Shown: piece after piece, positions 5,164 through 29,444 of the stretch
Layout: the number at the start of each line of letters is the position of its first letter
Numbering within the stretch: position 1 is the first letter of the stretch
Source of the DNA: Streptomyces sp. NBC_01298
Lineage (GTDB): Bacteria > Actinomycetota > Actinomycetes > Streptomycetales > Streptomycetaceae
DNA length: 64,000 nucleotides
Direction: 5' to 3'
NCBI RefSeq assembly: GCF_035978755.1
Contig: NZ_CP108414.1
Span: 124,001-188,000 of the forward strand
The notes under the pieces: generated by a model
Told to the model about the DNA's origin: nothing
The model's database searches: none
Seen by the model: the letters and a program-made list of their open reading frames with translations, nothing else
Made by a program: the position numbers and the translations under genes

Positions 5164-5391
5164 ATGCTGGACAGCACACTGACCGCCCCCGCACCGCAAC
5201 TGCCCGCCCTGACCCCCCGCGAGCACGAGGTGCTCGCCTACCTCGCGCAGGGACACACGTACCGGATGATCGCCTGCCAGATGGGATTGAGCCCGCACAC
5301 GGTCGACACCTACCTGCGGCGCCTGCGCAGCAAGACCGGTTCGGCCAACCGGACCCAGCTCACCCACATCGCCTTCCGGCTGGGCTACTGA
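5164..5391 (+). CDS. stand-alone LuxR/GerE DNA-binding domain protein
   Basis: A 75-residue protein that is almost entirely a GerE-type helix-turn-helix: LTPREHEVLAYLAQG opens the domain, and MIACQMGLSPHTVDTYLRRL is the turn and recognition helix. There is no sensor or receiver domain. The ATG at 5164 follows GGAG at about nine bases. Its last seven bases overlap the 3' end of the convergent MFS gene (TGA at 5389-5391, opposing TAG at 5385-5387). Small orphan LuxR proteins of this kind often act as pathway-specific regulators in actinomycete clusters. Here it sits at the exit of the minus-strand NRPS operon and divergent from a larger LuxR gene. Confidence 0.88.
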   Translation: MLDSTLTAPAPQLPALTPREHEVLAYLAQGHTYRMIACQMGLSPHTVDTYLRRLRSKTGSANRTQLTHIAFRLGY

Positions 5392-28000: not shown

Positions 28001-29444
28001 AGCGGAGTTCGCCCGGGGCGTGCGGAAGGATGCCGCGGGGCGGGCTCGGAGCATCGCCGGTGAGCGGGGACCCGATGCCGCCGCGCTCGTCGCCCGACAG
28101 CATCGGCAGGGAGTCGAGCGGCAGTTCGGGGTGATCGGTGGCGGCGTCGAGAAGGCGGGCGAAGTGCCGGCCGAACTGCTCGATCGTGGCGGCCTCGAAC
28201 AGGTCGGCGCGGTACTCCAGCCGGCAGCTCGTCACCCCACCGCTGCGTACGACGTCGAAGGTCAGGTCGAACTTGGCCGTTCCGGCGGGCCCTTCGAGCA
28301 TCCGGGCCTTCGGTCCGGGCAGACCGTCGGTCATGCCGTCCTCGTCGTGCAGGCCGAACATGACGTGGAACAGCGGCGCGTCCTCTCCCGTACGCCCCGG
28401 CGCGATCCGGTCGACGACCCGCTCGAAGGGCAGGTCCTGGTGGTCCTGGGCGTCGAGCACGGTGTCCCGTACGCGTTCGAGGTGGATCCGGAACGCGGGG
28501 TTGCCCGACAGGTCCGCGCGGATCACCAGCGTGTTGACGAACAGGCCGACGGTGTCCTGGAACTCCTTGCGGTTGCGGCCCGCCACCGGCGTCCCCACGA
28601 GCACGTCGTCGGTACCCGTGTACCGGCCCAGCACGATCTGGAAGGCCGCCAGCATCAGCGTGTAGGGGGTGCTGTGCGTGTCGCGGCACAGGCGCTCCAT
28701 CCGGGCGAGCACCGGGGCCGGCACCTCGAAGGAGTGCAGCGCCGCCGCGCCGGGCGCCGCTCCTGACCCGGGGCGGCCGTCCCGGGGCAGGGGCGCGTCG
28801 GGCAGTTCGCCGCCCAACCGCTCCTCCCAGTGGGCGAGCTGGCGCCGGGCGGTCTCGCCCCGGAGCCACTCCTCCTGCCATTCGGAGAAATCGGCGTACT
28901 GGTACTCCGGGCCCTCCTCGGCCGGCTCCGACAGCGGATCGTCGGCGCGCCGGGCGTACGCGGCGAGGAGTTCACGGGCGAGGATCCCGACGGACCAGCC
29001 GTCGGCGACTATGTGGTGCAGGGCGAGGGCGAGGACGGCGCCGTCGGGGGTGTGCAGCAGGGCCGCGCGGAAGAGCGGTCCGGCCTCCAGGTCGAAGGGC
29101 CTGTGGTGTTCGGCGGCCATCCATTCCTCGACGTCCCGGTCCCCGGCCGCGGTGGCCGAGGACCAGGCGAGTACGGCCCCGGTGTCGATGTGCTGCCACA
29201 ACTCGCCGTCCCGCAGGACGAAGCGGGTGCGCAGCGCCTCGTGCCGGCAGATCAGTTCCTGCGCGCAGTCGCGGAGCGCGGTCTCCTCCACGGGCCCTTC
29301 CAGGCCGTAGAAGACCGGCATGTGGTACGTCGGCCGGCCCTCCTCCATCTGCTGGAGGAAGTACATGCGCTGCTGGGCTGCCGATGCGCGGAACGCGCTG
29401 AACGACGGCTCCACAGGGCGTTCGATCGGAACGTGACTGGCCAA
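22005..29444 (-). CDS. two-module NRPS: C-A(Thr)-PCP-C-A(Ser)-PCP-TE
   Basis: A 2479-residue synthetase. C1 is at about 15-430 (LHHIVADGWS). A1 is at about 480-1025 with code D-F-W-N-V-G-M-V-H-K, a classical threonine code. PCP1 is at about 1045-1110 (ALGGDSIRS). C2 is at about 1135-1600 (AEHHAVLDGWSEHSL). A2 is at about 1605-2115 with code D-V-W-H-V-S-L-V-D-K, serine. PCP2 is FFESGGHSIDAL, and the TE is at about 2235-2475 (AGWSFGG, DHYGL). C2 resembles the modified-amino-acid condensation class that follows Thr/Ser modules and can form dehydro residues, so Thr may become dehydrobutyrine (inference). The start is TTG at 29444, five bases after GGGAG. It is the first gene of the operon and carries the release domain, so synthesis ends here. 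Confidence 0.96.
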   Translation of the reverse strand: MASHVPIERPVEPSFSAFRASAAQQRMYFLQQMEEGRPTYHMPVFYGLEGPVEETALRDCAQELICRHEALRTRFVLRDGELWQHIDTGAVLAWSSATAAGDRDVEEWMAAEHHRPFDLEAGPLFRAALLHTPDGAVLALALHHIVADGWSVGILARELLAAYARRADDPLSEPAEEGPEYQYADFSEWQEEWLRGETARRQLAHWEERLGGELPDAPLPRDGRPGSGAAPGAAALHSFEVPAPVLARMERLCRDTHSTPYTLMLAAFQIVLGRYTGTDDVLVGTPVAGRNRKEFQDTVGLFVNTLVIRADLSGNPAFRIHLERVRDTVLDAQDHQDLPFERVVDRIAPGRTGEDAPLFHVMFGLHDEDGMTDGLPGPKARMLEGPAGTAKFDLTFDVVRSGGVTSCRLEYRADLFEAATIEQFGRHFARLLDAATDHPELPLDSLPMLSGDERGGIGSPLTGDAPSPPRGILPHAPGELRCVHELFAAHAARTPEAVALVHEGASLTYRELDTRANRLAHRLRALGVGPDTLVGLCLPRSADLVVGLLGILKAGGAYLPLDPDNPPERLRHIIGDARLAHVVGTTATRDLWDTPGAVPDPADPHSAAALPAAALPAALHTVDLLADAPLLAVQPDTAPQTGVTPDHLAYVIYTSGSTGLPKGTLVPHSNVTRLFSATDHWFGFGPDDVWTLFHSIAFDFSVWELWGALAHGGRLVVVPYGTSRSPEEFHRLLRAERVTVLNQTPSAFYQLARADEEHHRTAGATGSGLSLRHVVFGGEALDVAALADWFARHGDTAPRLVNMYGITETTVHVTYRPLTARDAEEGRGSVIGVPIPDLSLHLLDARGRTVPRGAVGELYVAGAGLARGYLRRPELTAERFPTVPADGTAGRVADAPAGLSAGERLYRTGDLARALPDGDLEYLGRIDHQVKLRGFRIELGEVEAALAAHPRVDAAVALVAPDPAGTDVLVGYLAVTGAEDGAGPTVQELRAHLERRLPGYMIPGAFVTLPAFPLTANGKTDRRRLPAPGSVARTPSAAYEAPRGPVETALTEVFAQVLGHERVGALDNWFALGGDSIRSLQVLARIRERGLDLTIADLMRRQSARALAPAVTRQAPAPGGAAPCEPFALLTPEDRTALPEGLEDAYPMTRLQAGMLYHSDLPSAGGRVYHNVASYLVEAPFSEAAWRTTIGVLAARHEMLRTSFDPHGFTEPLQLVHRGARPEITFEDLHGLDPEAQDTAVAARYAAERDRPFAWDRPPLIRFHVQRLSDTRLRLFVAEHHAVLDGWSEHSLLTELASCYTEALAARTPGDGPSPDAGPRSRFATFVALERAALADPGQRAFWTGKAADAPATRLARPAATGGPTRMSWYLAPLPQGLHARLTTLAAECGVPLRTVLLAAHLRVMALLGGGDAVTTGVVHNGRAEETDGDKVVGAFLNTLPLSVEVTGTHWRGLVAHVAELEAELHAYRRFPLAEIQRLSGGGPLFETFFNYTHFHVEQDGPTGGSFTVLEETGEAGTDFAFGAEFSRSPDGSLLELGLRYDAAQFSEEQMESAHASYRAALRDLSEAPDRDCTAAGLLPEAEHRRYAEWNRTAVPYPRPHVLTRLIDEQLERTPDAPAVRFEGAELTYRALGAQADRLCAVLRERGAGPGTFVGLLMERSLALPVVLLAVLRSGAAYVPLDPEHPAPRVRSLLAESGIGLVVTDGAWADRLEGSAVTVVRPRDTPQDTPRDAPAAPTAAATDTVDVSGPGTGPGPTDPAYMIFTSGSTGKPKGVVVSHRAIANRLLWMQDEYGLTAGERVLHKTPYTFDVSVWELFWPLLTGATLVLARPGGQRDPGYLAALIHDEGVSTVHFVPSMLSVFLDEPEAVTRAAGLTRVVCSGEALPYEVQRRFFERLPGVELHNLYGPTEAAVDVTYWQCRPDGGDTVPIGRPIANMRTHVLDRRLAEVPLGVTGELFLEGVGLADGYHGRPELTAERFIEHTGPDGVTRRLYRTGDLARHRPDGALEYAGRTDHQLKIRGFRVEPGEIEAVLAEHPGVRDCAVLPRGERLVGYFVPESAGPGTIAAPDPGDLAVHARERLPEYMVPSAWVSLEALPLTANGKLDRAALPDPDPADLRGGAEPTPPRDALESRLAGIWERLLAAGPVGVHDDFFESGGHSIDALRLIGRINQAFGERLGVSAVMEHPTVARQADLLRGRHAGAGPDPVVRIRPEGTLDPLFLVHPIGGNVFCYRALAVELEPGRPVFGLTAPGLTAPDPVSGATVEELAAAHVEALRRIRPEGPYHLAGWSFGGLLAYEMAVRLRAAGQEVATLALLDTGYPEPAHVPADECDLLEWFHEDLARSAGFDPSGEGVSVLRGELRGVTGTTARLAVLAEQVEREGFAPGLDPRDLARHYAVFRTGIRAAAAYEPPAAPCPVLFLQTRTGGRENAADRWAGRAAAGFTRHDVPTDHYGLMRPPHSSRAAALLSTALATADHR

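Follow-up and report, generated by a model that had tools for sequence, protein, structure and literature searches.

Enzyme sets made up of a kinase, a pyridoxal 5'-phosphate (PLP) enzyme and a lyase are known for making 2,3-diaminobutyrate (Dab). Cirratiomycin and antrimycin reportedly contain this residue, and in the work on cirratiomycin its formation is said to have needed CirR, CirS, CirQ and a fourth enzyme, CirB. Lavendomycin of S. lavendulae is a linear hexapeptide with Z-dehydrobutyrine. Here we describe a nonribosomal peptide synthetase (NRPS) locus of Streptomyces sp. NBC_01298 that brings both features to mind. The window, meaning the whole 64,000-nucleotide stretch of DNA that was analysed, corresponds to positions 124001-188000 of a 9.03 Mb contig in a genome of 9.7 Mb. 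From the domains, adenylation (A) codes, condensation (C) domain classes and conservation of the locus we infer its substrates, residue order and product, and we consider it fairly likely that it is an orphan operon for a small peptide, in which the flow would lead from threonine-derived Dab to D-(Arg/Gln)-Dab-Val-Dhb-Ser (Dhb, dehydrobutyrine).

Scans with Pfam and NCBIfam found ten NRPS-locus genes at 5385-29444, all of them on the minus strand, as an earlier reading of this DNA (the original prediction) had described. The Pfam E-values of the domains reach 5.4e-181, all catalytic motifs checked across the locus are intact, and adjacent genes either overlap by 4-35 bases or are separated by 2-138 bases with the start calls of this analysis. 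The locus is confirmed as real, far above chance, and its gene order recurs in other species. We call it the right arm, to distinguish it from a second NRPS line at the left edge of the window (the left arm). The kinase/PLP/lyase set that the original prediction had recognised is also present: a GHMP kinase, a PALP enzyme and an argininosuccinate-type lyase occur together, and we refer to their genes as the trio. The description of the middle gene as encoding an SbnA-like enzyme holds loosely, for the PALP domain, but not for SbnA proper. This domain scores 243.7 bits against the SbnA model TIGR03945 (residues 7-304), under the cut-off of 349.95; no SbnB dehydrogenase was seen among the ten genes or the scanned neighbours, the remaining genome not having been searched for it; and the product is a 755-residue fusion, with the PALP domain at about residues 1-320 and an ATP-grasp ligase with LAL_C2 at about residues 345-755.

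In the proposed pathway, the GHMP kinase would phosphorylate L-threonine to O-phospho-threonine, and the PLP domain of the fusion would swap the phosphate for the amine of an amino donor, most likely aspartate because an argininosuccinate-type lyase acts next. The lyase would then free fumarate, yielding Dab. The enzyme is a probable L-threonine kinase and Dab the probable product of the pathway; source names of the kinase homologues include L-threonine kinase or "propanediol utilization" for some and plain "kinase" for many. The lyase scores 244.1 bits against the argH model TIGR00838, under its cut-off of 279.5, and carries the catalytic loop of argininosuccinate lyase (SSAMPQKKN). The relatives with solved structures are argininosuccinate lyases and include 6g3d, the ethylenediaminedisuccinate (EDDS) lyase, which acts on alkyl diamines.

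The fusion of the two enzymes raises an enzymology question, namely the part of the ligase in the formation of Dab. In an alignment of 24 sequences, the query among them, both halves are conserved, with a mean column identity of 75%. A search with an E-value limit of 0.001 returned 515 homologues, of which 120 were listed; each of these 120 has both the PALP and the ATP-grasp Pfam domains. Our guess is that the ligase may act at an intermediate stage, perhaps adding a residue that is later taken off. The ligase half also matches the NCBIfam models DdaF and BacD, and together with its LAL_C2 domain these matches speak for a different role, in which the ligase and the lyase would make a Dab dipeptide or amide as the building block, and the residue following the first one would not be free Dab. 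The 890-position model NF002563, which is matched by the ligase half at positions 3-399 and by the lyase gene at positions 510-821, suggests coupled activities of this kind. We nevertheless find a dipeptide or amide building block rather improbable, in view of the same A code class in SbnA/SbnB clusters with no such ligase found nearby.

The conservation of the trio was assessed by a profile scan of genome contigs with the fusion alignment, which confirmed 137 relatives, and the best 80 of these were kept as loci. Counts from our many-genome searches are lower bounds, about six candidates having been scored per genome. A kinase homologue was found in 71 of the 80 loci, a lyase homologue in 72 and both in 65; the order lyase-kinase-fusion, judged by best-hit positions irrespective of strand, is kept in 63 of these 65. 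Fifteen of the 80 loci also carry an orthologue of the gene for the peptidyl carrier protein-epimerization (PCP-E) protein, with the same gene order. All nine searched genes stand in identical order in ten of the fifteen, and in the other five, which are cut by contig or locus ends, the genes present keep the order; the MFS exporter, located outside the fetched flanks of those loci, is excluded from this count. The fifteen include S. avidinii, S. cirratus, S. griseofuscus, S. tropicalis and S. morookaense, and nine belong to genomes that were also used for the LuxR and left-arm comparison below. In a genus sample of 150 genomes, the fusion gene was present in at least seven, our own genome included. 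The locus offers a testable structure for an orphan peptide of several Streptomyces species. The trio is found in S. cirratus, in K. aureofaciens and in K. xanthocidica, the last presumably the same species as S. xanthocidicus.

The surroundings of the trio vary. NRPS and MbtH genes lie near it in 30 loci, a stand-alone C-like gene in 19 and a threonine-aldolase-like gene in 18, the latter two named by eye. In the related clusters L029, L031, L037 and L038 the trio is accompanied by a gene resembling threonine aldolase and by a terminal NRPS of the Thr-Ser type (52-55% identity), with the A code DDLQVSTID adjoining; L087 resembles these clusters. A second trio locus of S. cirratus, L040, was considered as the cirratiomycin cluster and rejected: by eye, several ATP-grasp-like genes and a transketolase-like pair stand beside its trio, and no NRPS match lies within 10 kb. 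In L074 of K. aureofaciens we noted, by eye, a free-standing C domain along with type II thioesterases.

The A codes were read at nine positions from a hidden Markov model alignment, with the final Lys left out and A-domain matches of less than 180 residues dropped. The code DIWEVNADD marks the protein at 8448-11708 as the likely diamino-acid module of the cluster, so that the module probably taking the diamino acid is now identified. When the fifteen same-order loci are set aside, DIW(E/Q)xxxDD occurs in 24 of the 45 loci with at least one complete A code (codes with a gap were dropped, and flanks end at 10 kb); the code DIWQATCDE of L068, which ends in DE, is counted neither with these 24 nor with the 20 discussed below. 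In our own genome, where 30 of 42 matches yielded 29 A codes, the DIWE..DD class accounts for one. The A domain labelled CAT2 served as the query for the right arm and for the code-class searches. A CAT2-like A domain (E up to 1e-75) was found in at least 143 of 392 congeneric genomes, far more than carry the fusion, and all 29 CAT2-like loci with codes read have DIWE or DVWE, with DD at the end.

Eleven contexts outside the orthologous clusters were compared (two, plus nine CAT2-like loci: L169-L178 minus L172), with flanks of about 9 kb per side in two cases and up to 20 kb in the others. Kinase, lyase and ATP-grasp genes were found in none of the eleven fetched stretches, and another PALP gene, of 31-37% identity, was found in ten (one cut by the stretch end). 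Five of these ten PALP genes were scanned with one neighbour each: the SbnA cut-off was passed in all five, at 373-399 bits, and the SbnB cut-off likewise in all five. Because relatives of the module elsewhere sit near PALP genes that, where scanned, are of the SbnA type with an SbnB neighbour, the code class is a general marker of 2,3-diamino acids, and D(I/V)W(E/Q)xxxDD may be used to spot such residues in other clusters. The DIW code as an exclusive marker of Dab was rejected, the same class being found beside SbnA/SbnB pairs.

This sharing of the code class with SbnA/SbnB clusters, which are diaminopropionate clusters, would suit a kinase that uses serine and a pathway that yields 2,3-diaminopropionate, with the module order unchanged. 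We regard this as unlikely. Some of the kinase homologues are source-named L-threonine kinase, many being called just "kinase"; SbnB was not seen in the genes scanned; and the trio loci include those of S. cirratus and K. xanthocidica, cirratiomycin and antrimycin coming from S. cirratus and S. xanthocidicus.

With threonine-derived Dab as the preferred reading, assembly can be proposed as follows. The free A domain would load an Arg- or Gln-like residue onto the PCP-E protein, which would convert it to the D-form; the DCL-type C domain of 8448-11708 would couple this D-residue to Dab; and the protein at 11728-14928 would add Val. The protein at 22005-29366 would then add Thr, its second C domain dehydrating Thr to dehydrobutyrine while coupling Ser, and the thioesterase (TE) would release D-(Arg/Gln)-Dab-Val-Dhb-Ser in linear or cyclic form. 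Export would fall to the MFS protein and regulation to the LuxR protein. The order of the first residues follows a tree of 11 C and E domains from both arms. In this tree the C domain of 8448-11708 clusters (support 100/99) with a C domain of the left arm that is preceded by an E domain on one and the same protein chain, suggesting that the module acts directly after the PCP-E protein. The C domain of 11728-14928 groups with LCL-position domains with weaker support (89/94), and the E domain of the PCP-E protein pairs with the left-arm E domain that lies in cis (100/100).

The last A domain of the right arm has the code DVWHVSLVD, a Ser code. The Thr code, DFWNVGMVH, is identical to a predicted Thr code in a published table, where DAYFMGATF also finds near neighbours in the Val codes DAYFWGVTFK and DAYWWGGTFK (PMC9113097). 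The C domain between the Thr and Ser modules is, from its motifs and matches, of the dehydrating CmodAA type. Its best PDB matches are McyA (308.8 bits) and AmbE (231.5), the next scoring 116.2; for a control C domain, that of 8448-11708, McyA and AmbE gave 98 and 93 bits against 268 for the best match. CmodAA features, as given in PMC11342130, are a [K/R]SVLLAAH helix, R(R) at C6 and HHxxxDG. Our domain has RTVLLAAH (two changes within the consensus, end residues retained), AYRRFPLAE and HHAVLDG, and so shows all three. The PCP motif of the Thr module is GGDSI, and those of the Dab and Val modules are GGHSL; a review assigns GGDSI-type carriers as donors to E and DCL domains and GGHSL-type carriers as donors to LCL domains (PMC10880069).

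These results bear on what the original prediction had said of the assembly line. Its Thr and Ser A domains agree with the codes, the idea of a split initiation by a free A domain and PCP-E in a line of about five residues is supported, and its dehydrobutyrine gains support from the CmodAA-type domain at the Thr/Ser junction. Its placement of Dab at the initiation module is not supported: the free A code, DVENVGCIT, lies outside the D(I/V)W(E/Q)..DD class of diamino-acid pathways, and that class sits in 8448-11708. Among published codes, the free A code comes closest to DVE codes for Arg or for the 3-amino-6-hydroxy-2-piperidone (Ahp) position, differing from DVENAGVVTK (cyanopeptolin Ahp position) at three positions and from DVESIGAIAK (Arg/Tyr, anabaenopeptin synthetase) at four. 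A D-Dab initiation module, which we hold to be very improbable, has two points in its favour: the free A gene belongs to this operon, and its code has Glu in third place, which fits a cationic side chain.

Several points weigh against the product proposed here. In the cirratiomycin work a fourth enzyme, CirB, was reportedly needed for Dab, and at up to 10 kb from the trio no fourth non-NRPS family other than MbtH shows wide conservation; beyond NRPS and MbtH genes, no other family is conserved across most trio loci at that distance. The code for the first residue falls between Arg-type codes and the cyanopeptolin Ahp-position code. The gene order is not colinear, and the residue order proposed above rests on C-domain types from a small tree. 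Within 10-kb flanks, 20 of the 45 trio loci have no DIW(E/Q) code. A DD(L/V)Q(V/L)STID code is carried by L032, L035 and L042 and adjoins L029, L031, L037 and L038; given these seven loci and the 20 of 45, the link between the DIW code and the trio is not universal. Finally, DIWQSTADD was found beside the trio and also beside an SbnA/SbnB pair, and since it occurs in both settings, the A code does not decide between Dab and 2,3-diaminopropionate. Six A-code strings of the trio clusters gave no match in the literature text searched, and none of the code strings looked for was found in PMC12283262; of six further strings, DAYFWGVT alone was matched, in one paper.

Table 1. Features of the right arm and its left-hand neighbourhood, in window coordinates.
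Feature	Position	Strand	Basis
NRPS C-A(Thr)-PCP-C(dehydrating type)-A(Ser)-PCP-TE, 2453 aa, predicted last two residues and release	22005-29366	-	Pfam; codes DFWNVGMVH, DVWHVSLVD; TE motif GWSFGG
CmodAA-type (dehydrating) condensation domain, Thr/Ser junction	24666-26045	-	PDB matches; RTVLLAAH; RR at C6; HHAVLDG; donor PCP GGDSI
Argininosuccinate-lyase-like enzyme	20220-21866	-	Pfam Lyase_1; SSAMPQKKN loop
GHMP kinase, probable L-threonine kinase	19280-20254	-	Pfam; motif GKGLASSSAD
PLP beta-replacement domain + ATP-grasp ligase fusion	17010-19277	-	Pfam; NCBIfam; alignment
MbtH-like protein	16711-16935	-	Pfam
PCP-E protein, predicted to be loaded in trans and to epimerise the first residue	14925-16718	-	Pfam; E-type motif VGWFTT
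C(LCL type)-A(Val)-PCP	11728-14928	-	Pfam; code DAYFMGATF; C-type tree
C(DCL type)-A(2,3-diamino acid)-PCP, proposed diaminobutyrate module	8448-11708	-	Pfam; code DIWEVNADD; C-type tree
Stand-alone adenylation domain, Arg/Gln-type code, proposed loader of PCP-E	6764-8350	-	Pfam; code DVENVGCIT
MFS exporter	5385-6716	-	Pfam; NCBIfam H+ antiporter/EntS-like matches under cut-off
LuxR-type regulator conserved with the locus	3871-4848	-	GerE domain
C-terminal end (PCP-TE) of left-arm NRPS, 3528 aa, starting outside the window	1-1006	+	Pfam and gene calling
Left-arm MFS exporter	1367-2719	+	Pfam

The ATP-grasp half of the fusion, the LuxR-type regulator and the second NRPS line had all been overlooked in the original prediction. 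This left arm is convergent with the right arm and lies at L011:2522-20000 and at 1-2719 of the window, reaching about 17.5 kb past the window's left edge. It has five modules, in a 2633-residue protein (C-A-PCP-E-C-A-PCP, the E domain assigned by motif and tree) and a three-module protein of 3528 residues, with PCP-TE ending at base 1006, and is followed by an MFS gene. Its codes are DVLDSGAVS (with E), DVWHVSLVD (Ser), DAYFWGVTF, DPRSMTQNT and DILQLGVVW, the last presumably a Gly code. DAYFWGVTF is assigned to Val in the code table cited above (PMC9113097).

Among the 392 congeneric genomes, the left-arm A domain with the code DPRSMTQNT occurs in at least seven, in all seven with the fusion gene within about 22 kb. 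The right arm, traced by a CAT2 A domain of at least 85% identity, occurs in ten, three of which have the right arm only. The probability of such an overlap by chance is 4.5e-13 if relatedness is ignored; the genomes are related, so its true weight is less. Three pairs of genome handles with identical coordinates (G039/G150, G062/G158 and G078/G155) were taken as the same genomes, which reduced 13 handles to ten genomes. Seven of these ten distinct genomes, which were chosen for their right arm, have the left exporter and A domain adjacent, in the same convergent layout, and three lack them. In nine of the ten, the LuxR orthologue lies no more than about 15 kb from the trio; in G157 it stands at the opposite end of the operon, and in G153 (S. 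griseofuscus) it was not found near the trio.

The neighbouring second line suggests a pair of peptides. As no sampled genome was found to have the left line by itself, it is tempting to speculate that two convergent five-module lines, each equipped with a separate TE and exporter, form a conserved supercluster and are co-inherited as their peptides act together like streptogramin pairs; we put this forward tentatively, as somewhat unlikely. That both arms build one larger product, for example two peptides linked after release, seems to us still less probable. The left arm does occur only with the right arm (seven of seven), and against a joint product stand the separate TE and exporter of each arm and the right arm without the left in three of its ten genomes.

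Between the two arms, at 3248-3760, lies a 170-residue gene, cupin-like by eye and without a Pfam match. Outside the window, an NRPS A-domain fragment with an internal TGA was seen at G000:C1:88138-88419, and the short gene beside it, at window positions -35602 to -35204, resembles, by eye, an A-C-terminal/PCP remnant. Genes of the P450 and BCCT transporter kinds lie at 41454-46612, and PLP decarboxylase-like and MFS_2 genes at 60578-63446, the right edge of the window.

We conclude that the locus is a true NRPS operon, an orphan of a familiar type that is conserved among genomes and for which a well-defined structure can be predicted, and it can be set beside several described systems. With the friulimicin/amphomycin and uridyl-peptide (pacidamycin) clusters it shares the proposed 2,3-diaminobutyrate residue and the kinase/PALP/lyase set; these are lipopeptide and nucleoside-peptide scaffolds, whereas the present ten genes include no lipid-starter or nucleoside gene. 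The SbnA/SbnB pathway has the PALP beta-replacement enzyme in common with it, and partner A domains of the D(I/V)W(E/Q)..DD class; the present locus differs in a PALP domain under the SbnA cut-off, in showing no SbnB and in its extra kinase, lyase and ATP-grasp ligase. The second C domain of 22005-29366 has McyA (microcystin) and AmbE as its best matches among solved chains and bears the CmodAA signature, but it belongs to an actinomycete line, where it sits between a Thr and a Ser module. Lavendomycin has dehydrobutyrine in common with the predicted peptide and, reportedly, diaminobutyrate, arginine and Ser too; it is a hexapeptide, in contrast to the five modules here, and the present ten genes are without a methyltransferase. 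For cirratiomycin of S. cirratus, Dab is reportedly made from threonine by CirQ, CirR, CirS and CirB, enzymes presumed homologous to those described here. Cirratiomycin is reported to be a heptapeptide of twelve NRPS proteins, with other unusual residues, whereas the copy of the present cluster in S. cirratus (L021) has the ten-gene order.

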